A DNA stretch of 64,000 nt from Geranomyces variabilis (taxonomy: Eukaryota > Chytridiomycota > Chytridiomycetes > Spizellomycetales > Powellomycetaceae), in contig JADGJP010000035.1 in NCBI GenBank assembly GCA_027603065.1, positions 183,609 through 247,608 of the forward strand, in the 5' to 3' direction. Numbering within the stretch: the first letter of the stretch is position 1; each line of letters starts with the position of its first letter. Of this stretch, positions 12,939 to 57,178 are shown one piece after another. The notes below the pieces were generated by a model. The model was not told the DNA's origin. It worked only from the letters and a program-made list of their open reading frames with translations, and did no database searches. The position numbers and the translations under genes are program-made.

Positions 12939-14824
12939 ATGCATCCTCGTCCGTTGTCGACGATGGCTGCCTCGCTGACTCCGTCTGCGACACTGCCGCT
13001 GCAAACTCCCTTCCTGCTTCCCTTTGCACTCGTCGCTTCGGCACTGTCCACGGCCGAAAGTGTCACATCCACCGCTGTTCCCGATGTTCCCACTGTTCTC
13101 GCTGTTACCAATGCCACTGATGCTACTGAGTCGGCTGCTGCTGTCGCCCTACCCTCCGATGCCGAGCTCGTTGCAACCCGAATCAATTTGATCTTTATCA
13201 TGACAGCCACAATGTCTGTTGCCGGCGCGATCACCGTCATCCGCTCATACGTCTCGCGCAGAGAGCTACGCACACCTTCGTTGCAAATCGTCGCCGTCAT
13301 GGCTGTCTGCGACCTGGGCTTTGCGCTCAAATTCGTCGGCTCTGCGCTACTTTCACTGCTGGGAAACACCTCGGCCGTGACTACTGGCACCATCTTGTGC
13401 GGCGTCAGCGGACATCTAGGCCAGTTCTTTGCTCTGTCGACAATCTTATGGTAACGCCTATATACATTTCCCACTCCTTTTCCTTGCAGCCTTCACATAT
13501 TCGGGCATTTCACACAAACCTTCTTTCTTCCCAGGAACGGAGCTATATCCCTCAATCTCTTTATGCTGCTTCTTAATCCACGCAAGCTTAAGCCTGGCCG
13601 TTTCGTTCGCATATATCATTACATTATCTGGGGTTACTGCATCCTTTCCGCCATCGTGCTGGGCGTAACCAATCAGATCGGCTTTACCGAGGACGGCACC
13701 TGCTGGATCATCGGCAAGCAAAGCCCCTTCCGACTGCTCTTTTACGCTCCGCTGTTTGTCAGTTTCCTTTTCGCGCTCTTTGCCGTGTGCTTTGCGACGT
13801 ACCGCCTGCAAGTCAGCGGCCGCGACACCTCGGCGGCCAGCGACACCCGCAAGGTTATGAGTCGCAAGCGCGCCAGCCTCGTACGCATATACCTTGTCAC
13901 TATCGTTTATGTCTTTGTCTGGATGTGGTGCGTGTCTGCTGAACCAAACTGCATCTGCACTACCATTTGCAAAGGCTTGTCATCTGACTGAAATCTGCGC
14001 GCGCTCTATCTCATGCGCATAGGTCGATCATTTTTCGCGCTACAGCGTTTTCGTCCGACGAACCTCCTCCACTCTGGCTCACGTACATTCAAGCCTTCTT
14101 TCTCGGCTCGCAAGGATTCTTTAATGCGGCCGCTTGGTCCATCTCGGTTCTGTTTGCGCCAAAGCCGTCGAAAGAGCCCATGAAACCACAGATTGTCCTC
14201 GGGATGCCGGCGCCAATGGAGGTTGAAAACTCGATTGCGCGGTTCCAAATCATGTACCCACCCAGCAGCAACCTCCCGCATCGCGCCAAAGAATCTTGGG
14301 AGCACAATAAGGCAAATCAAGATTTGGAGCAGTCTGGCCTTTCAGTGTTTGACCAAGGGGGGCACACGCCGCCGCAGCAGGACTCGGTCTGGCGCATTGC
14401 CGTACGCGCTGCTGCAGGTTCGCCGACGTTTGACCTGCCTCGCGCTATGCCCGACGAGCAACAGGAGCAAGGCGCTACAGTTGACAATGTCACAACAGCC
14501 ACTGCCGCGCCAGGCGCGTCCATTTCGCACCACCCGACAACCCGCTCAAGCCGCACGCAACGCAGCCGACTTGGTCGAAGTCACGCGCGCACTCGATCGT
14601 CATTTTATGACTTTTACGATTTGCTTGTCTTTGAAGGGCAGCACCATGGTCACAACTACGACGCCCACAATGAAATGGAAGTGTTTTCGTCAGAGCTCCC
14701 GCCTGGCACGTCCAGCGAGGACCCTGTCAGGGCGCAGGACGACGCTTCAACGCTTGATGACGACGGCGGTTGGAAGGTTGGGCAAGACTGGTCGGCGAGA
14801 CGGCAGTGGGCTGGACATGCATAA
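12939..14824 (+). CDS. cAMP-receptor-like seven-transmembrane protein (class E GPCR type)
   Basis: Three exons (12939-13450, 13535-13927, 14023-14824) give 568 residues; a Met at 12963 is an alternative start. A hydrophobic leader and an Ala/Thr-rich extracellular part precede seven hydrophobic spans between about residues 85 and 370. Signatures of the Dictyostelium cAR/CRL family are visible: ILWNGAISLNLFMLLLNP in TM3, YHYIIWGYCILSAI in TM4, the extracellular TCWI motif after it, and FFLGSQGFFNAAAWS in TM7. A hydrophilic C-tail of about 200 residues is rich in Ser, Thr and His and could be a phosphorylation and arrestin region. Both introns split a Trp codon (TG|G). The ligand is unknown; fungal members are usually tied to nutrient or cAMP signalling by inference only. 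Confidence 0.82.
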
Positions 14825-15250
14825 CAGCTGTCCTACGCCGCAATTTTTGTATTTGCCTCTAGTTTGTTGATGGTTGGATATACCCCTTTTTCTTCTTCCT
14901 ATTTCGTTTTAGATAGAACAGACCACCCTCTTATTTTCGCGAGCCTTTTACCCCTTGGTTAGATATTATACCCCTTCCAGACTTTTCTAGTACACTTTGC
15001 AGTTATTCCTACTTACTCTCTTGATTCTAAAAGTCCCAATCTGTGTACAGTTTCTTAGATTGCGGTCCCAGCATGAGGTATGGAGTAAAACCCGGCCCGG
15101 ACTGTCGAAAAACAGAGACGTCCCGTTCATTGCCGCGCCTGCGCCACGCGTCAAAAGATGTCGTAAGCCTTCAGCGTCGATCATTCTGCCACATCCTCCT
15201 TCGAAGCCTTACTACAAGCTCTGCCAATTGCCATTCCCTCAATCCTAAAG
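14825..15250. other. Intergenic region, nothing recognised
   Basis: The left part is AT-rich and pyrimidine-rich 3' flank of the GPCR gene; the right part is the short promoter of the TIM21-like gene. No RNA gene or conserved frame was seen. Confidence 0.5.
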
Positions 15251-19167: not shown

Positions 19168-20297
19168 ATGTCTGATGAGGTGCCGACTGATTTGCCAACA
19201 TGCTTGGACGCTCTTGACAATTCAGAGTGGGACAACTTTTACCAAACGATGACCTTTTCCTACGATTCTGATTCAGTTTCGTTTATCAGTTGAGTTTAAA
19301 AGGTTTAAGCAGATAAGATTCATGATCCGGACAAAGTTCTGATACGGCAAACTCTGCGACAGTATCATTGTGCGTGGAATTTCTGTTTTTGTCCCTTTTG
19401 TTCGATCGGCTGATTGGACTGACCCATCGGCCAACAAAGATCACATTTTGGGCAGCTGTCGCAACATCCATTCTCTGGAACGTTATCTGCCTTCTGTCGC
19501 GGAGGGTGACGTGGATACATGAGACGCTGGATGGACACCTCACCTTCTTTTGGATACGTGGAATTCTCGCGGCTTTCAATCAGTTTTTTGTCATCCGACT
19601 GCTATATCTCCGCGTGGCCGATGCCCTATCACGCTTCGGAGGACGACCGGTTGCGATGGCCGCGCTGGCATCAACATGGGCCGTGCTTATCTCAGAGCTA
19701 TGCAAGCATTTGACCGGGACCATTATGCTGACTATATCCCGGGACGATGATCAGACACTTTATTACGACTGGATGTTGTATACAGCAACAGCCTACCGCA
19801 TTCTAATAGATTGCGTGTTCAGCTTCTACTCCTTCTGGGTGTAAGTCTTTAACCTGTTGATCCGCAACTAATATCACGACGCTAATACTGTCTGGCTTCC
19901 CCTCCCCTCCAGTATCCACCAGGCCTCCTCCGGCGTCATACCCTCTAACAAAAAACGCGGCTTACGGGAAGATGTAGCCTTCCTTATCGGATATGGCGCC
20001 CGGGTCCTCATTTTCCTCGGCGTTGACGGCGTGACGGTCACTGCGATGGTTATTTCACGCAATTACGACGATACATCCTTTGAGGCGCTTACACTGTGGG
20101 CAGTGACACAGCTGCTGGGACCGGTGAAACCATATCTGATCTGCACGGATATGTCGCGGATCCGTGCGCTTAGCGAACTTGGGCAAGTGGACGAGTCCGC
20201 GTCGGGTAAATCGAGCGGGGTAAAAGCGGGGACTACGCTGGTGGAACGAAGGCTGAACACTGCGACAATGGAGATCAATGACCCCGAGAGTCGCTGA
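19168..20297 (+). CDS. Unrecognised 7TM family, member 1
   Basis: Exons 19168-19288, 19363-19840 and 19913-20297 give 327 residues. A short N-terminal part (MSDEVPTDLPTCLDALD) precedes seven hydrophobic spans. Signature segments shared with the genes at 42813 and 44132 are FDRLIGLTHRPTKITFW (after TM1), YLRVADALSRFGG (after TM3), DVAFLIGYGARVLIFLGVD (TM6) and KPYLICTDMSRIRALSE directly after TM7, like a receptor helix 8. The 7TM layout with a conserved basic loop after TM1 and a post-TM7 motif suggests a receptor, but I cannot match it to any named GPCR class. Intron 1 (phase 1, just before TM1) is at the same place in all three paralogues; intron 2 (phase 2, before IHQASSG) is shared with member 2 only. 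Confidence 0.78.
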
Positions 20298-36700: not shown

Positions 36701-38888
36701 ATGCAAGGCGAGGAGGGCCATCTTCTCCCAGGCGCGGACAGTGACGACGATGACGATTTTGATCTCGACAATACGGACGAGTGGGACGCCAACGACTGGC
36801 AGGCCTTGGAGGAACTGTCGACCGACGCAACGCAGGGCTTGCAATGTCCGCCTCAAAGCGCCGACTTGCAGGAAGCCACTGTCACGGCGTCAGATTCCAT
36901 GAAGTCCCGCCTTCTCATCAATCCGAACAAGGCGGGAACTCAGAACGCTGACAGAGCAAAGATACAAGAAACTATCTACGAAGCGTCAAAAGGGTCGCCG
37001 TTTTTCTTATCCGAGCAGCGCAAGGACGCAGAAGCGACTGTCAAGATTGCGAAATATGTAGCGCAAGCCAAAGAAATCCGCGCAATGGACCTGCGCGTTG
37101 AGCGCTCCGTTGTGCAGCAGGCGCTAAGTACTCTCCAGCGTGAGTCGGAGGCAGCCGAACCACGAACTATCGTTTGTGTGGACATGGATGCTTTTTATGC
37201 CTCAGTAGAGGAACTTGACAATCCGGAACTGAAATCCAAGCCCATGGCCGTTGGCGGGATTGGGATGCTGTGCACAGCAAATTACGAGGCGCGCAAGTAT
37301 GGTGTCCGCAGCGCCATGCCCGGTTACATTGCCCGAAAGCTCTGCCCGCAGCTGTTAATTGTCCCGCTTCACTTTGAGCGCTACGGAGCCATCAGCGCTG
37401 TCGTGCGCGAGGTGTTTGCGATCTATGATCCAAATTTCAGCGCTTTCTCTCTCGACGAAGGCTTGCTGGACATCACAAAGTACCTTGCCGAACACCCGGC
37501 GCAAAATCCCGAAGAGGTTGTCGCCGAGCTCAGGGAGGAGATCTTCAAGCGAACTGGCCTGACAGCAAGCGCTGGGATCGCAGGAAACAAAGTTGGTGGC
37601 TGCCAGCAAGTGGCCATTTTCACAATCGTTTCTGATGCGTGTCATTGTTGCCCTTAGATGCTGGCCAAAATATGCTCCGACTTCAACAAGCCAAACGGAC
37701 AGATGTATCTTCCGTCTGACCCGCTCAGAGTTCGCGAGTTCATTGATGTTTTGCCGGTTCGAAAAGTGCCCGGCGTCGGGAAGGTGCAAGAGCGGGTGTT
37801 CGGCGCATTGGGCATTGAAACGTGCAGAGATTTGGTAAGCACGATGGTTTAAGTAGTTCACAAAATCCACACATCCGCTGATTGTACCGAATTTCCATCA
37901 GAGAGAAAATCTTCCTCTAATCTACAAAATGTTTTCCAAAATTCACTTCCGCTTTTGCCTCCGCGTGTCTCTTGGAATTGGCTCCACCGAACTGGACTCT
38001 AACCATCAACGCAAAAGCGTCGGCTGCGAGCGCACCTTTCGCGCGCTTCCGGCTTCTGGAAAAGCACCCTCGCCTATGCATGCCAAACTGAAGGAGATTT
38101 CCACTCACCTGTGGGATGATATACAAAAACAGGGCGTGAGGGGCAAACGGGTTACTCTGAAATTGAAGACCACTGCTTTCCGGCTTACGACAAGAGCAAA
38201 GACGCTTGAGACTTTTGTGAGATCTGAGGAGGAACTGTACCGCGTAGCCGAAGCAATTCTTGATACCGAGATCGCCGCCAACCCGACAATCACCCTTCGT
38301 TTGATGGGAATTTCGCTGAGCGCGCTTTCCAGCCTTGCATCCTCAGGCGATCCCGCGTCCCCTGGGATCTCGCGATACCTAATACGCCCAAAGTCTCAGC
38401 CAAGAGACGGCGATACGTCGAATGATGACGAGGATGATGAGGCTCAAGCGGGTGCCGAAAGTGGCGTGCGGCACCGCAGGTCAGTAGAAACCACTTCCAA
38501 TTGCCCTATCTGTGGGAAGATTCTGGAAGGTGACCAGCGAGCCATGGATGAGCATGTCGGCAGATGTCTGGACGACGCGGAGCCACCTTCAATAGCGGAC
38601 GCCACCAGTGCGGGGAGGGAAAGAAAGTCAGCAGACGTCACGACCGCAAATGCCGCAAAGAATGAAGGAATTCTGCGCTGGGTGGTAAGCCCTTGTTGTT
38701 ACGTCTCCGGTGGGTACAAAATTACTGATTTGTGTTTACAGAACCGCGCGGGATCGTCACCACCAAGAAAAAGAGTGAAAACCGAGCAAGAGTTCTTAAC
38801 GTGCCCGATTTGTAACACAAAGCTGCCGCGGCAAGATGATGTAAACGCGCACATCGACGTATGCCTTCTGCGGAGTGGCAGGAAGTAA
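36701..38888 (+). CDS. Translesion DNA polymerase kappa (Y family, DinB)
   Basis: Exons 36701-37591, 37658-37834, 37902-38684 and 38742-38888 give 665 residues. After an acidic N-terminus and the helical clasp that Pol kappa adds before the palm (NPNKAGTQNADRAKIQETIY), the catalytic motif IVCVDMDAFYASVEE sits near residue 160 and the second acidic motif SLDEGLLDIT near 250; the usual form is SLDEAYLDIT. GLTASAGIAGNKMLAKICSD and VLPVRKVPGVGKVQERV (helix-hairpin-helix) follow. The C-terminus has two C2HC UBZ-type fingers, CPICGKILEGD...HVGRCLD at about 557 and CPICNTKLPRQDDVNAH at about 637, which bind ubiquitinated PCNA. The enzyme bypasses minor-groove guanine lesions. All introns are phase 0. 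Confidence 0.93.
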
Positions 38889-42812: not shown

Positions 42813-44000
42813 ATGGATGGCCAAGAGGACGCAGCACCCACCGATCTTCCGTCGTGTATTGAGGCTCTTGCATTCGTAAATGCCTCGATTGATGCGCTGG
42901 GCACCACAGATGATCAAGCGTGGGCATTCGCATACACCAATGACGCTGTGGATTACATTCGTAAACAAGTCTTTGCCATCTATCCATCAAATTAACATGA
43001 CTTATCCAATGATTTGCTCTTCTGCCATAGTTGCTTGCGTTGTGACTCTCGTCTTTATCGTGCTTCTCTTCGATCGAATTATCGATATCCAGCACCGGCC
43101 CACAAAAATTGCATTTTGGGTGGCCGTAGCGTCACAGATTGCTTACGATTTGATCAATATATTCAGTATGGCCAACTTACGATTACCGTACTGGGTACGC
43201 AATATACATATCTAATGCAAAGTAATTTTTTTCAGAAGACGAAGTATCATACTTCTATGACGGCGTGGGTCTTTGGATCTACTACTACGGCCGCTCGCTG
43301 TTCGCCGCCGTCAACGAATTTGCCATCATCTTTCTTCTTTACCTCCGAATTCAAGATGCGGTCCGACGCATCTCAGGAAGACACTGGATGAACGTTTGCT
43401 TATCGTTGACAATATTCGTGCTGCCGATTGAGCTACTTAGACAACTTTATGGCGTTGTCAAGCTGCACATAACTGGCACCGGCGACGATCTGGATCCCCC
43501 GGGGTTGATTTGGACCACCACCGCGTACCGAGTAGCGCTGGATCTTGCGTTTACTCTCTATAGCATCCGAATGTAGGAGCCATGGAAACAGAAAGAAGCA
43601 TCGAGTGTCCATCACTCACGCACTCCCACCTTTCCGTAACAGCATTCATCACGCATCGAGTGGCGACAAAAGCAACCGTGCTCAACAAATATCCGATCAC
43701 GCGTTTCTCGTTGGCTACCTTTTCCGAGTGTTGCTCTTTCTTGCTGTCGACGGCCTGTTCATAGCGGTAACGCAGATGGACATTTCGTACGATGATCCAA
43801 GCTTTAGCAGCTTAACGCTATGGGGATTAGCAAGAGTTTTACTAGTTATCAAGCCATTTTTGATTTGCACGGATATGGCGAAAGTGCGAGCGCTTTCGGC
43901 GGGTGGGGAGGCGGCCGCGGGCTCTTCACCAGGGGCGACGAAAGCTATGTCTGATAAGAGCGCATCAGCTGTTTACAAACCCACTGTCTTTGTTGCATAA
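42813..44000 (+). CDS. Unrecognised 7TM family, member 2
   Basis: Exons 42813-42960, 43031-43165, 43236-43572 and 43643-44000 give 325 residues, almost the length of member 1. An extracellular-looking N-terminus with DLPSCIEALAFVNASI (one N-glycosylation sequon) leads to seven spans. Shared motifs are LLFDRIIDIQHRPTKIAFW, IYYYGRSLFAAVNEFAIIFL, YLRIQDAVRRISG, AFLVGYLFRVLLFLAVDG and KPFLICTDMAKVRALS. It has one intron that the others lack (43166-43235), whose donor GTATGG was chosen because it alone keeps frame. The other two introns match member 1 in position and phase. It is 131 bases upstream of member 3, head to tail. Confidence 0.76.
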
Positions 44001-44131
44001 AACGTTTAATAAAAAACCCCGCCGTCCACGGTCCAGCCAGAGGTTGCGGAGGATGGCTGGGTTGTTGAGCTGTCGAAAGACGTGACGTGCATTCTTTTGA
44101 ACTCAGCCGGACGGACTCGCACAAACCCAAA

Positions 44132-45173
44132 ATGGACGACCCGACCGACCTTCCTTCTTGCATCGCAGCCGTCATAGACGCCAATGCAACACTAACGAAT
44201 TCCGCAAGCGATCTTGATGATCAGGCAGCGAACTATGGATATAACTCGGACTCCATAAATTGGATACGTAAGGCTGACAGTCCAAAACTCATGTCGCTGT
44301 CTCCCTTTCAGCTCATCCAACGCGACCAGTTTCTAGCTTGGTCCAAACTCTGTTCCTTGTGCTTCTCATTGATAGAATCGTTTCCCTCGGCCATCGACCG
44401 ACAAAAATTGTGTTTTGGATAGCTGTCGTGTCCAGCCTTCTTTTCGAGATATTGAACGTTGTCGGCAACGTTGTCCCATGGTTCTTCACACTCGGCGGGA
44501 ACATTGTTTACTACTATGGACGAGCTGTCTTCGCACCCACGAATCAATGGGCGGTCTGCCACATGTTGTATCTTCGAGTGTCCGATGCGCTTACTCGACG
44601 CTTCGGCCGTAAGATTGCGATGATAGCGTTTGGCCTAACAGCTGCCGTTTTCCCCATCGAACTGGCCAAGCAAGGATATGGAGCAATCTTATGGTCGGTA
44701 ACGCTTAACGAAGATCAGCCTCTATATTTGAAATCGTTGAATTATCTGTCTGCTAGTAAGTTGGCGTTATGCGATTCCAAATGCATGCCATTTTTCTCAA
44801 TATCGTGCCTCTAGTCTATCGAGCGGCGCTGGATTTGACTCTTAGCGGCTATTCTTTTTGGGTCATACACACCGCAGCAAGCGGCGACCGTTCAAGTCAC
44901 CACCGCGGCCGGCTGATGCGGGAGGATACAGCATTTTTTGTGGGCTACGCGGCGCGGGTTTTATTGTTTCTTGGAGTGGACATTCTGTTTGTGATATCAA
45001 CGTCCTTCTCATCTGGTCAAGATGATACGAGCTTCGAAAGCATGTCGCTGTGGGCGTGCGCGCAGCTTATGTCTCCGATCAGGCCGTACCTGATTTGCAC
45101 CGACATGGCTCGCATTCGCGCTTTGTCGGCCGAGTCGCCGGACGAGGTCACCTCGGATGCGAAGGTCAAATGA
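44132..45173 (+). CDS. Unrecognised 7TM family, member 3
   Basis: Exons 44132-44267, 44330-44755 and 44815-45173 give 306 residues. The N-terminus is MDDPTDLPSCIAAVIDANAT with a sequon. Motifs are LLIDRIVSLGHRPTKIVFW, IVYYYGRAVFAPTNQWAVCH, MLYLRVSDALTRRFGR, AFFVGYAARVLLFLGVDILF and IRPYLICTDMARIRALSAE. The first acceptor was set at 44329 so that the junction gives SINWILSSLVQTLFL, aligning with members 1 and 2; an upstream CAG at 44311 would add six residues. A phase-1 intron lies just before IYRAALD, while the phase-2 intron found at the TM5 end of members 1 and 2 is absent. Its stop codon is 14 bases from the stop of the convergent IRC3 gene. Confidence 0.76.
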
Positions 45174-52016: not shown

Positions 52017-55000
52017 TTACTTTTCGTCCAGCACAACGACGGGGCTCCAGTTGCCGGGGACGCCTTCCTCCTCGAGCCGCATGCACTCCTCAAGATGCAT
52101 GGTCGCAGGCACGTCCCACGGCACATCGACAAGGTACGACTCAAACAGCAACTTTGCCTGCTCGAATTCGCCCTGGCAGTAGTAATCAAACGCCTTTTCA
52201 TACAGCAGCATTCGCCGCGAGACAGCCGGATCGCACTCTTCAACGCTGTCGACTAGCTCAAAGCACTTTTTCGCGACCGTTTTGCCCTTGACGGCGACAT
52301 AGTCGAGCGGGCGGAGGACAAAATACTCGTGGACTTGGTCGCGCACGGCGTCAGAGACGATGATGGATGTGTGGTAGCGTTTGTTGAGCTCTTCGAGCCG
52401 GGACGCCAGGTTGACTGTGTCGCCAAGGCAGGTGTAGTTGAGCCGCGTTGGCGAGCCGAGGTTGCCTACTAGGGCGGGTCCGGTGTTGAGTCCGATGCGC
52501 GCCCTGATCTCTGGGTAACCCTTTTCGAGCCAGTCTGACACAGCGGAAAAGAGGAGAAAAGAAGGACATGGAAAATGAGCACGATGATTACACAGGTGCG
52601 AGAGAGAGATCACCGCCGTGCTTCGTTTTACCCGCTCGCATTTGTCGCAGCCTTTCCTGAGACTTAAGCGCGGCGTCGCAGGCTACAATCGCGTGCTCAT
52701 CAAGGTATAGCGGGGCGTTCCAAAACGCCATTACCGCCTTAATGTTTTAAGCACGGATTAGTATCGAATCTCTTTCAACGCTGTCGAAAAAAACAAACAG
52801 GAAAAAACTGAAGTTTTCGCCCTTACATCGCCAATGAACTTGTCTACAATTCCCTGACTTTCTAATATGATGCTCGACATTTCGCTCAAGTACTCACTAT
52901 AATATGAAGGTAAGTAGCACGTTAGAGCTAGCAAAATCACGACAAATCTCATTAACTGTACTCCCGGCCGAGTTGTTTATACCTCATTACCAGAACCAGC
53001 TGCTGCGGGCTCATACTCTCCGCGATTGTCGTAAAGTTGGCGATATCCGAAAAAAATATGCTCAAGCTCATCTCGTCGACGCCAAGCACAGCCTCCCGCT
53101 TCATCTTGACCAGCAGCGCAACCACATCCAGCGGGACGTATTTGCTAAAACTCTTCAAGCCGGACGTCATGGCGTCCATGGCCGTGTTGAGCAGCTGAAT
53201 TTCTTTTAGCACAAACGGCGGCTGCTTGCGTTTGCGCGACGAGGCGGTCGACGAGCGGCGGCGCGTTGTGCGCACGTTGGAGACTGACCGCGGTGGTAGG
53301 AAAAAAGATCTTCGGACAGCCGTGTCTGAGCTCTGATTACGGCCGTCGTCGCTATTGCCAGTGCCCAGCGCACCCGAGAACGAGCTTGACTTCCACCGCG
53401 TTTTCAGACTCGCAAACGACCATCTTCGTCCACCGAGATGCAGATCCTCGCCACTGCTGTCCTCACCACCACTACAGTCGCCATCCGTCTCCGCCTCCGT
53501 GTCGGCCAAATCCTCATCAAAGTTCAGATCCGCAATCCGCATCATTTTCTCCGCGGCGCGTTTCAGCGGCCGGCCAATCGCGCGCGTGATGAGAAAACTG
53601 CCCAGCGCTGACGCGACGAGGACCAGCGCGGCAGTGAGCGGGATAGTCAGCGTGTAGATTTCGCCAAGCTTGATGTGGAAATACACGCCAGGCACGCGGC
53701 CGACAATCGCCCATTGTAGGCCTTCGCGGGGGTTGAAGCGCGACGCGACGGTTAGTGCCGAATCGGTCCATACGCGGAGTGGCGCAGAGAGGATTTTGAC
53801 GGGTCCGTCGTTTAGTGCGGCGTCGGTGGGGAGATTGGCGAGTGAGCCGACAGCTGCGGCGAGGTTTCCGAAACATGGGTCGGCGGTTAACGATGAATAC
53901 GGCCGCGGTGGGCTGTCTGGCGACTGAGGCTGCCCGCGCGCTTGCGGTACAGTGCCAGTGAGACCGGGACATGTTGACGCAATAATACTGTCCGTCTGCA
54001 GATCTGCAATGAGAAACTGGATCGAGTCTGTCGAGGTATCTTGAGTAGCTAGCAGCAGGTCAGCGTGCGTGACGTCCAGAGCGCGCAAAAGCGCAGAAAG
54101 CGACTGGCTGAGGAAATCCGACAGCGATCCGAGATGGATATCAACTGCAGCCAGTGCAATCAAAGGCGAAGCAGTGGTGCTCGCATGGATCGGCAACACA
54201 TTGGTAAAACCGTACCCATCGCCCGAACCCAGATTATACGAGCTGGTCCAGCTAGCACCAGAGTCCGCCACCGCTTGCTTGTAATACGGCCGCTGCGTCG
54301 CGTCGTAAATGTCTGTATTGTCTGCATTCTCACCGAGCAGCTGACCGACGCACGACATGAGTCCCAGATCCGGGCATGTCGTCGCAATGCTGTTGTTGAG
54401 ATTATATGTGTAGCGAGGCGCCGGCGCTGTCCCGTTTGCGACGCGCAGGACAAACTCCGAGTCGCCACCCGCTGGCACGGTTGTGTACGCGCCATGCTCG
54501 TCAAAGCTCTCGAATCCGGGGAATTCAGTAGCTAGTAGCCCACAGAATGCGCCTTTAGCGTCGACCATGTAAAACTGATCGCCGCTCCACATCGAGTCGT
54601 GGCGCGCAGTTGACCAGAAGAATGCCGGACACTGGAGGCTGTCGGGACGCAAGCCGTAAACAGTCACCGCAGTCGCCGTGTCGCCATTTCTGTCTTCTGC
54701 TCTTGCGAGAGCGTTGCCGATCGAAAGCGCTATAGATTTCAGCGCGATGTTTCCAAGCGTGTCAAGCGCGGTCGCCGCAGTGTCCCTTCCCGACACATAG
54801 CTCACAATCGTTATGATCACAATCGCAAGGGTTATGATAATGACGTTTGTTACCGCCATGGCATTGCGCAGCGACAGCCAGCGCGGCGGTAACCGCACGG
54901 CTTTCATCCACGGCGAGCGAATCGGGGCGTCTGACGACCGGCGTGATTCCCCACTTGTACTCGCTATTGATGCTCTTATTCGGCCAGGTCGCCAAGTACT

Positions 55001-57178
55001 GCCCGCCGACACGGTCGCGGCGCTGCCGTTCATTGCCGCCGCTGGATCTTCGCCAGTGTTGAGATACAGTTTGCGGGTGCGGATAGATCCACTGGATTTC
55101 CGCGCCGGATGGGTGGGCAACTCCTCGATATCGTCCGAGGATCCCTCGATGTAGGACGGCAAAGGGTTTGTGCTGTCGTCGTCTTCTTCACGTCCAGAAG
55201 TTCGTCGAGGTACCATTGGGTGCTCGGCAACGATCGTGACCGAGAAATCATTGGACGGTTCTGGCTCATCCGGCCGTGATTTAAAAATGCTCATGTTGGA
55301 AATATGCGTCTGCTTGGTGGTCGTGTAGGTTGCTCCTGACGCCTTTGCATGCTTTCGCGCCAAAGAAGAGTACGATTCCAAAACTTCAGACCGTTCAGGC
55401 TCGCTGCCGATTCGCTTGGTCCCGGTGCCGGTGCCGCTGCTGCCGCCGCCGCTGGTGGGCCGCATGCTAGCATTTGATCCCAGACTCGTCGTTGTTTTTG
55501 GCACTTCGTCATCTGAGCCTGTTCCCGTACCATTCCCAGCGCCAGAACCCTTCGGGCCGCTCCGTCGCTTCTGAGACTGCTCCAGAAAGATGCGCATTCC
55601 ACGCGCCTCCTCGGCAGTCAGCATGTCGGCCTCGCCGCCGCGATGCTGGCCGTTTCCCCCACTATGCTTGCGCGTCTGACCCATGAATGCAGAAAACGCT
55701 TTCCGCTGTCCCTCCGAATAGTTGCTACCGCTGCTGACATTGTTTTGACTAGTAGGAATGTTTTCATCACTGCTGTCTCCATCACGGCCCGTATCGGCGC
55801 TAAACGACACGCGGTGTTCGAAATCAATATCGCCATCGCTTGTTTTGCGTGGACCGGCCGTGGCGCTTTTCGGGCGCTGCGGGCGCTCGGAGCTGGTGCT
55901 GCGTTTGATCCTGAGGACATCTGGCGCGCTTGTCTTGCGCGTGGCCGGGTGATAGCGGTGATTGATATCGTAGAATGGCGGTGATGGTGAGCCGGCGTTG
56001 CTGCCAGAGCCCGAACTGTCCTCTTCGGATTCCGGTATGAGATTGCGAGACGCCGCAAAACTGCCGCTGATGCAGCCAATGCTGCTCCGTCTGTGCTCGT
56101 GCAGATGCGCGAGATGCTGCGCGGCTTCATCGCCCCCACCACCGCGGGACAACGATGATAATGACGACGAGGGAATCGTGTTTAGCGCAGGCTCGCTGCG
56201 CAACGCGCCGAGAGTGTCGGCGGGTCCACCACCACCACCACCACCGATACCACCGATACCGCCAAGACCACCCCCGTATGACGAGTTTGGCGATGACGGT
56301 CTGCGCAGGACAGAGCGTAACGGCTTTTTCACCGGCTTTGGTATCTGGTCTGGCGAGGATTTTGTCGATGGCGGTCCCGTCGCCGCCATGGGTGAAGTCG
56401 TAGTAGCATCGCCGCTGTCAGATCCGAAGGAACCCTGCGAAGAGGAAAACGCTTGCGCAAAGGGCGTGCCAGCGGCGGTAGTTTGCGCTAACGATGCCGG
56501 CAACGGCAGTGCCAGCGGTGGTGGCGGCGCCGCACCTGCAGAGACCGCCGCCGACAAACCGGGGATTTTGGTGACGGGCACAGGCGCGGGAGCCGGCGGA
56601 GACGGTGGGTCGCTTGATGATGCTGGCGGGGATATAGCCGGGTATTGCCGTGGATGCATACGAAAATGTGGGCCGTTGGGCAGCGCTGAATGCGCAGTAT
56701 AGTTACTCAGAGATGGTCCTACTTTTCCTCCTCTTGCTCCAACTGCTGCTGTCACGGTTGCGGCTGCTGTTAGCTCGGGTGGTGTTGTTGGCGTTGGGAA
56801 TTGAGCACTGGGAATCAAGCTTCGCCAAGGCCCGAGCTGCGATACAATGTCAGACACATCGGTGTCCTTTGAAGTAACGCTGCTGGTGCCCGTGCCAACC
56901 GTGCCGATTGATGTTGCGCTCCCACGTCGTATGCTAAGCAGATCCATCGCAGCAGCGCCAATATTTCCTTTCCACGTGCGCGGGATGTCGCCCGCCGAGG
57001 AGGTGCGGCGCATTGCATTTCGGGTCTCGTCACGAAACAGCGTTGCTTCAAGCGACTTGTCGCTGACGCCAAGTGCTGCTGATGTTGCTGCGGCGGCGTC
57101 GCCGGCGGCTCCTGCTGATTGCTGCTGCTCGTGGGCGCCAAAAGGTATCGGCATGACCGGAGGCTCAACCTCAGTCAT
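52017..57178 (-). CDS. Two-span class III adenylate cyclase with extracellular sensor
   Basis: Four exons high to low: 57178-52983, 52896-52827, 52737-52632 and 52534-52017; 1629 residues. Residues 1 to about 770 are Ser/Pro/Gly-rich and probably disordered. TM1 (VTNVIIITLAIVIITIVSYV, near 780), an extracellular sensor of about 390 residues with Cache-like features, and TM2 (LTIPLTAALVLVASALGSFL, near 1180) follow. A HAMP-like RPLKRAAEKMMRIADLNFDE leads to the cyclase domain: FFSDIANFTTIAESMSPQQL (metal Asp), DKFIGDAVMAFWNAPLYLDE (substrate Lys, second Asp) and RLNYTCLGDTVNLASRLEEL (Thr, transition-state Asn and Arg). The C-terminal part looks like a TPR-like helical tail. The layout differs from the LRR-bearing cyclases of Dikarya. 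It makes cAMP; the ligand is unknown. Confidence 0.9.

Follow-up and report, generated by a model that had tools for sequence, protein, structure and literature searches.

Ste2 of Saccharomyces cerevisiae (class D1, Pfam family PF02116) is, as a passage of a 2026 review has it, the only fungal G-protein-coupled receptor (GPCR) with a solved structure (PMC13308352). In its helix 7, which has a kink at Pro290 (99% conserved), the inner part obstructs the G-protein site; on activation this part swings out by 20 Å and helix 6 moves in (PMC8942848). The cited portion of the same review restricts STE2 receptors to Ascomycota (PMC13308352), as does that of Liu 2025, which covers 1,357 species, places class 1 (STE2) in Ascomycota alone and infers that it arose late (PMC12842992). 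In an extract of Krishnan 2012, no homologue of Ste2, Ste3 or Git3 could be reliably identified in Chytridiomycota (PMC3251606). Here we analyse three genes, A, B and C, in a 64,000-nucleotide stretch of DNA (the window; contig C29:183609-247608) from the chytrid Geranomyces variabilis (order Spizellomycetales; assembly of 23.8 Mb in 91 contigs). Their products belong to a family that is real and is unnamed in the libraries searched. On balance we favour the explanation that A, B and C are three of nine Geranomyces genes for related plasma-membrane receptors, which share a GPCR fold with helices arranged most like those of class D Ste2. The homology, the gene structure, the predicted bundle, the charge-based orientation and, for two paralogues, the finding that no solved fold is nearer than Ste2 were all computed.

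Three related genes in the window

A preliminary description, made from the letters of the window, had placed three genes at 19168-20297, 42813-44000 and 44132-45173, with products of 306-327 residues. Splicing by hand confirmed all three on the + strand (A, 327 aa; B, 325 aa; C, 306 aa), with GT-AG introns of 59-74 bases. The exons are listed below, with TM denoting transmembrane helix, IL intracellular loop and EL extracellular loop.

19168..19288, + strand: gene A exon 1; N-terminus and start of TM1, with the DLPTC motif; spliced reading frame
19363..19840, + strand: gene A exon 2; TM1 to TM5, bearing DRLIGLTHRPTKITFW; spliced reading frame
19913..20297, + strand: gene A exon 3; IL3, TM6, TM7 and C-tail, bearing GYGARVLIFLGVD and KPYLICTDMSRIRALS
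42813..42960, + strand: gene B exon 1 (HDU88_005383); spliced reading frame, the spliced product being deposited protein P0001
43031..43165, + strand: gene B exon 2; TM1, IL1 and TM2; DRIIDIQHRPTKIAFW
43236..43572, + strand: gene B exon 3; EL1 to TM5; spliced reading frame
43643..44000, + strand: gene B exon 4; IL3, TM6, TM7 and C-tail; KPFLICTDMAKVRALS
44132..44267, + strand: gene C exon 1; DLPSC motif; spliced reading frame
44330..44755, + strand: gene C exon 2; TM1 to the start of TM5; DRIVSLGHRPTKIVFW
44815..45173, + strand: gene C exon 3; TM5 to C-tail; RPYLICTDMARIRALS

Our hand splice of gene B agrees letter for letter with the deposited G. variabilis hypothetical protein HDU88_005383. 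Between genes B and C lie 131 bases. In another G. variabilis strain the orthologues of both are annotated as one 602-aa protein (P0013, HDU87_003483), an apparent gene-model fusion; as this protein covers the two together, the tandem order is kept between strains.

The four motifs attributed to the three proteins, DLP[ST]C, DRxxxxxHRPTKIxFW, GxxxRVLxFLxVD and [KR]PxLICTDMxxxRALS, are all found in the alignment of A, B and C. Pairwise identity is 40% (A-B), 46% (A-C) and 44% (B-C), and in a six-frame search of the genome gene C matches gene A at E 1.6e-34, a family likeness well beyond chance.

Nine members in the host genome

The family had been taken to have three members; the host genome holds nine. 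Besides A and B, the six-frame search with gene C gave exon-wise matches on contigs C78, C31, C45, C21, C28 and C18, and each of these six further loci yielded a reading frame by splice-aware alignment, the first exon of the C18 member being built by hand. The nine genes are 28-64% identical to one another, and genome searches with the divergent C18 and C21 members as queries found no further gene. Introns recur at matching places: at gene-B residue 50, phase 1, in 8 of 9 members; at residue 95, phase 1, in 5 of 9 (four in the same column, one a column off); at residue 191, phase 1, in 7 of 9; and at residue 207, phase 2, in 6 of 9. The splices were made by homology and their agreement is not fully independent, and the N-termini of the C21 and C28 members are uncertain. 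Deposited proteins P0001, P0008 and P0009 give identical splices for gene B and the C45 and C78 members.

Two candidates were left out of all counts. A piece at G000:C41:64571-64717 (- strand; open frame of 86 aa) matches the TM7 end of the family, with 60% identity over 30 residues (E 5.8e-5); its splicing gave implausible introns, and it is likely to be a remnant or a copy that has diverged far. The other, C45:226408, matched at E 0.029.

A maximum-likelihood tree of 21 sequences has 10 of 18 inner branches well supported and five long-branched rows. The fragment P0011 was excluded from alignments A2-A4 and the tree, and P0013 from A4 and the tree; six of the nine host genes have strain orthologues in the tree set. 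B and C fall in separate clades, so the tandem pair is old and does not reflect a recent duplication. Two G. michiganensis proteins lie inside family clades (P0006 beside B, P0017 with the C31/C78 group), and part of the expansion is thus older than the split of the two species.

Two profile searches over about 5.8 billion proteins, each scoring only the 7,996 candidates with the most shared exact five-residue words, returned 12 and 13 proteins; every one belongs to G. variabilis or G. michiganensis and is annotated as hypothetical. Neither returned anything corresponding to the host members on C21, C28 and C18, which were missed or are unannotated. Since known members were missed, confinement to Geranomyces is weakly supported and not established. 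For the expansion in related zoosporic fungi that had been proposed for checking, these searches are a poor test, and they returned members from these two species only. A further search with a typed consensus (residues 255-300) scored three candidates and returned P0001 alone; it missed P0004, and is silent on other chytrids. We found no description of the family in open-licence PubMed Central, where one of the queries, swamped by general terms, showed 5 of 223,749 hits.

Absence of matches in sequence libraries

Profile comparisons used alignment A3, which holds 12 proteins (8 of the 12 proteins then known and 4 spliced paralogues). A Pfam scan of these 12 members gave chance-level rows only, the best being G3P_acyltransf (E 0.015, in 1 of 12), and the NCBIfam library, made for prokaryotes, likewise stayed at chance level (TIGR00949, E 0.071, in 1 of 12). 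PF05462 (Dicty_CAR) and PF20152 (DUF6534) gave no row at E up to 1 in any of the 12, and sequence searches of the PDB with alignments A1 and A3 returned 0 matches. In the genome as a whole PF02116 had no match over the cut-off, in a search that was uncalibrated, as no control genome gave a match; the sole weak row lies on C14 (E 0.101), inside an open frame of 1,688 aa. Genome searches for STE3, Git3 and DUF6534 (PF20152) also gave no matches, and because no control genome matched either, absence is not shown. The named control genomes that matched in other searches are prokaryotes.

Predicted fold and comparison with Ste2

Structure prediction for two paralogues gave a seven-helix bundle in both models, in agreement with the receptor-like seven-transmembrane layout first read from the sequence. 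When Foldseek's top 1000 chains were ranked by Z, the three listed Ste2 entries (class D) took ranks 1-3 for both models; the next row followed 2.9 Z units lower in one case and 3.3 in the other. All 50 Foldseek rows listed for each model are GPCRs by title; insect-receptor chains are not among the listed fold rows, an absence that applies to those lists. In the second model TM7 breaks three residues before its proline. Neither of the two findings named beforehand as refuting the first reading, a strong match to a described family or the lack of a seven-helix bundle, emerged. The earlier view that the proteins can be tied to no named GPCR class stands by sequence, where neither Pfam nor PDB sequences matched, but not by fold, for which Ste2 is the best structural match.

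Class A receptors are marked by DRY where TM3 ends and by NPxxY in TM7. The alignment has neither: it shows YxR close to the TM3 end and, following TM7, TDxxRxRxLS. The family resembles Ste2 in lacking both marks, in its short N-terminus without a long ectodomain, in the TM7 proline and in having a conserved TM7 motif. It differs in the motif itself ([KR]PxLICTDMxRxRxLS, against LPLSSMWA in Ste2), in its shorter C-tail, in the conserved charges within TM4-TM7 and in the lack of detectable sequence similarity. Moreover, EL1 has about 11 residues, whereas a passage on Ste2 describes an EC1 with two short helices at 108-120 (PMC9220813). Class D1 is further marked by a shift of about 20 Å in the intracellular end of H4 and by an obligate homodimer joined through the N-terminus, ECL1 and H1; the models predicted here are of monomers. 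Basidiomycete DUF6534 proteins (PF20152) are comparable as unrecognized seven-helix fungal proteins, which part of Liu 2025 proposes as GPCRs (PMC12842992), but the members examined here gave no PF20152 row. Receptors of the Dicty_CAR type (PF05462) are likewise seven-helix proteins of the same genome, one of them encoded within the window, and are set apart by the missing Pfam row in the 12 members.

A charged membrane core and a conserved TM7 end

Inside the predicted membrane helices, five charged residues are invariant in all 21 sequences: E160 in TM4, D197 in TM5, R235 and D243 in TM6, and D284 at the end of TM7. Two further positions keep their charge in 21 of 21, R193 as R or K and K277 as K or R. 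By position along the helices, R193 lies at about the depth of D243 near the outside and K277 at about that of R235 near the inside; one naturally infers that salt bridges may join TM5 and TM6. Conservation peaks at the inner end of TM7 and the residues that continue it (KPxLICTDMARIRALS). The TM7 proline is present in 20 of 21 sequences, and the TM7 lysine is K in 19 and R in two (gene C and orthologue P0004). H71, in a loop, is the only invariant histidine column in A3.

Orientation and rates of change

Three loops on one side of the membrane have a net charge of 0 or below in all nine paralogues. On the other side IL1 and IL2 are positive in 9 of 9; IL3 varies between -1 and +2, and the residues following TM7 between 0 and +2. 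This pattern predicts an N-terminus outside and a C-terminus inside. Mean identity among the nine paralogues is 58% in IL1, 42% in IL2, 30% in IL3 and 67% just after TM7, but 33% in the N-terminus, 35% in EL1, 25% in EL2, 29% in EL3 and 20% in the C-tail. The N-termini, which had been said to differ most, are variable, but the C-tail, EL2 and EL3 vary more.

In comparisons of strain orthologues, the N-terminus is indeed ahead of the extracellular loops in rate of change. Nine orthologue pairs were run, with differing sites at 134/670 extracellular, 63/513 cytoplasmic and 172/1433 membrane positions; we used the six within-species pairs, one per paralogue, in which sites are not independent. 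These differ at 29/195 sites in the N-terminus, 21/244 in the extracellular loops, 21/355 on the cytoplasmic side and 71/976 in the membrane. Differences are more frequent in the N-terminus than on the cytoplasmic side (p 0.0009; leaving out the C45 pair, p 0.04). They are also more frequent in the N-terminus and loops taken together (50/439 against 21/355, p 0.008), a contrast that rests on the N-terminus and the C45 pair. This pattern weakly suggests receptors with differing ligands and a shared transducer, which it would fit.

Weighing the explanations

Several results count against a receptor family allied to Ste2. PF02116 gave no row at E up to 1 in the 12 members, nor in A, B and C, and hhalign of A3 with a single yeast Ste2 sequence gave a probability of 0.1%. 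In place of LPLSSMWA, the class D1 motif of helix 7, most rows have [KR]PxLICTDM. Because these profile and motif tests failed, membership of Ste2/PF02116 is not claimed. The conserved membrane charges have no visible counterpart in the yeast Ste2 sequence, which argues against close kinship and would also suit a transporter or an enzyme. Model confidence is moderate (pTM, the predicted template modelling score, 0.67), Foldseek E-values are weak (best 2.7e-3), Ste2 is not Foldseek's first row (ranks 15 and 28 for one model, 3 and 42 for the other) and the first model has no break in TM7. With Ste2 the sole solved fungal GPCR, other fungal classes could not compete in the fold comparison. Finally, the inside-outside contrast across paralogues is modest: when the conservation profile is shifted circularly, 19 of 293 shifts reach it. 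In the orthologue pairs, the extracellular loops by themselves show no contrast with the cytoplasmic side (21/244 against 21/355, p 0.25; 11/204 against 17/297, p 1.0, without the C45 pair), and the contrast of N-terminus plus loops loses significance without that pair (p 0.29). The weaker orthologue contrast lowered our confidence in the favoured explanation slightly, and raised that in the first two of its rivals, taken up next, by a still smaller step and a minimal one.

The family could instead form a GPCR class of its own, or a distant offshoot of some fungal class without a solved structure (Ste3, Git3, cAMP-receptor-like, Pth11 or DUF6534), the match to Ste2 then arising from its being the only fungal GPCR in the PDB, as the review passage cited above also has it (PMC13308352). 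We regard this as unlikely, though it accords with the lack of sequence similarity to Ste2, with TM4-TM7 charges unlike those of the Ste2 sequence and with the cAMP-receptor-like and glutamate-type GPCRs of the same genome; no Pfam model of those classes appears at E up to 1 in the 12 members, and in two paralogues Ste2 stands some 3 Z units above the listed rows of other GPCR classes. A seven-helix protein that does not couple to G proteins, such as a transporter, a membrane enzyme or a light sensor whose conserved charges do chemistry, seems to us improbable. In one model's ranking Ste2 lies about 3 Z units above such folds. The arginine at the place of the TM7 lysine makes a retinal Schiff base there impossible in gene C and P0004, which excludes it for gene C only. 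Adiponectin-type receptors have zinc ligands, against which A3 offers the single invariant histidine column of H71 in a loop. The gustatory-receptor-like (GRL) channels, akin to insect chemoreceptors, share the seven helices, and a passage of the GRL study names one candidate from each of two Spizellomyces species, also chytrids; it also puts the GRL N-terminus inside the cell (PMC7746228), whereas the loop charges here predict the opposite topology in 9 of 9 members, and we give a GRL origin almost no credence.

Other genes in the window and genome

About 4 kb upstream of gene A, at roughly 12939-14900 on the + strand (gene ends estimated), lies a cAMP-receptor-like GPCR gene with a Dicty_CAR match (PF05462) at 13437-13931 that scores 34.9 bits (cut-off 21; E 7.5e-8). 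A large gene at roughly 52272-57178 on the - strand encodes a nucleotidyl cyclase catalytic domain (PF00211, G000:C29:235880-236149, E 2.3e-8), and the adjoining open frame of 1408 aa has no Pfam match and looks membrane-anchored and sensor-like. The window also holds a Y-family DNA polymerase exon at 36701-37657 on the + strand (PF00817, E 1.1e-43). Across the 23.8-Mb genome about 22 loci of glutamate-type (7tm_3) GPCRs, by our own grouping, pass the cut-off.

A putative mechanism and its implications

Taken as a receptor family of Ste2-like fold, the nine proteins would each bind a different extracellular ligand, a peptide or a small molecule, through the acidic N-terminus and the extracellular loops. 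The charged core of TM4-TM7 (E160, R193, D197, R235, D243 and K277) may couple this pocket to the cytoplasmic face: a ligand at the acidic outer face would change the TM5-TM6-TM7 charge network, and TM6 and TM7 would move. By analogy with helix 7 of Ste2, movement of the conserved cytoplasmic end of TM7 (KPxLICTDMARIRALS) with IL1 and IL2 might then open a site for one G-alpha; seven G-alpha loci in the genome pass the Pfam cut-off. Zoospore chemosensing or signalling between mating cells is the likely role, and a choice between the two would be a guess.

Most likely, these genes encode chytrid GPCRs of a new family, with a fold like that of class D. More tentatively, and with real doubt, the family may be true class D: Ste2-type receptors would then predate the split of chytrids and Dikarya, and would have diverged in sequence so far that Pfam no longer recognizes them, giving rise in Geranomyces to a set of nine or more chemoreceptors whose charged membrane core is not seen in Ste2. 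If so, the ascomycete pheromone receptor would be one specialized survivor of an older sensory family. With a chytrid family for which Ste2 is the nearest solved fold, the origin of class D receptors becomes testable. The family also suggests that counts of known domains may overlook whole receptor families in early-diverging fungi, and it puts forward nine specific candidate receptors with which a swimming fungal spore might sense its surroundings.
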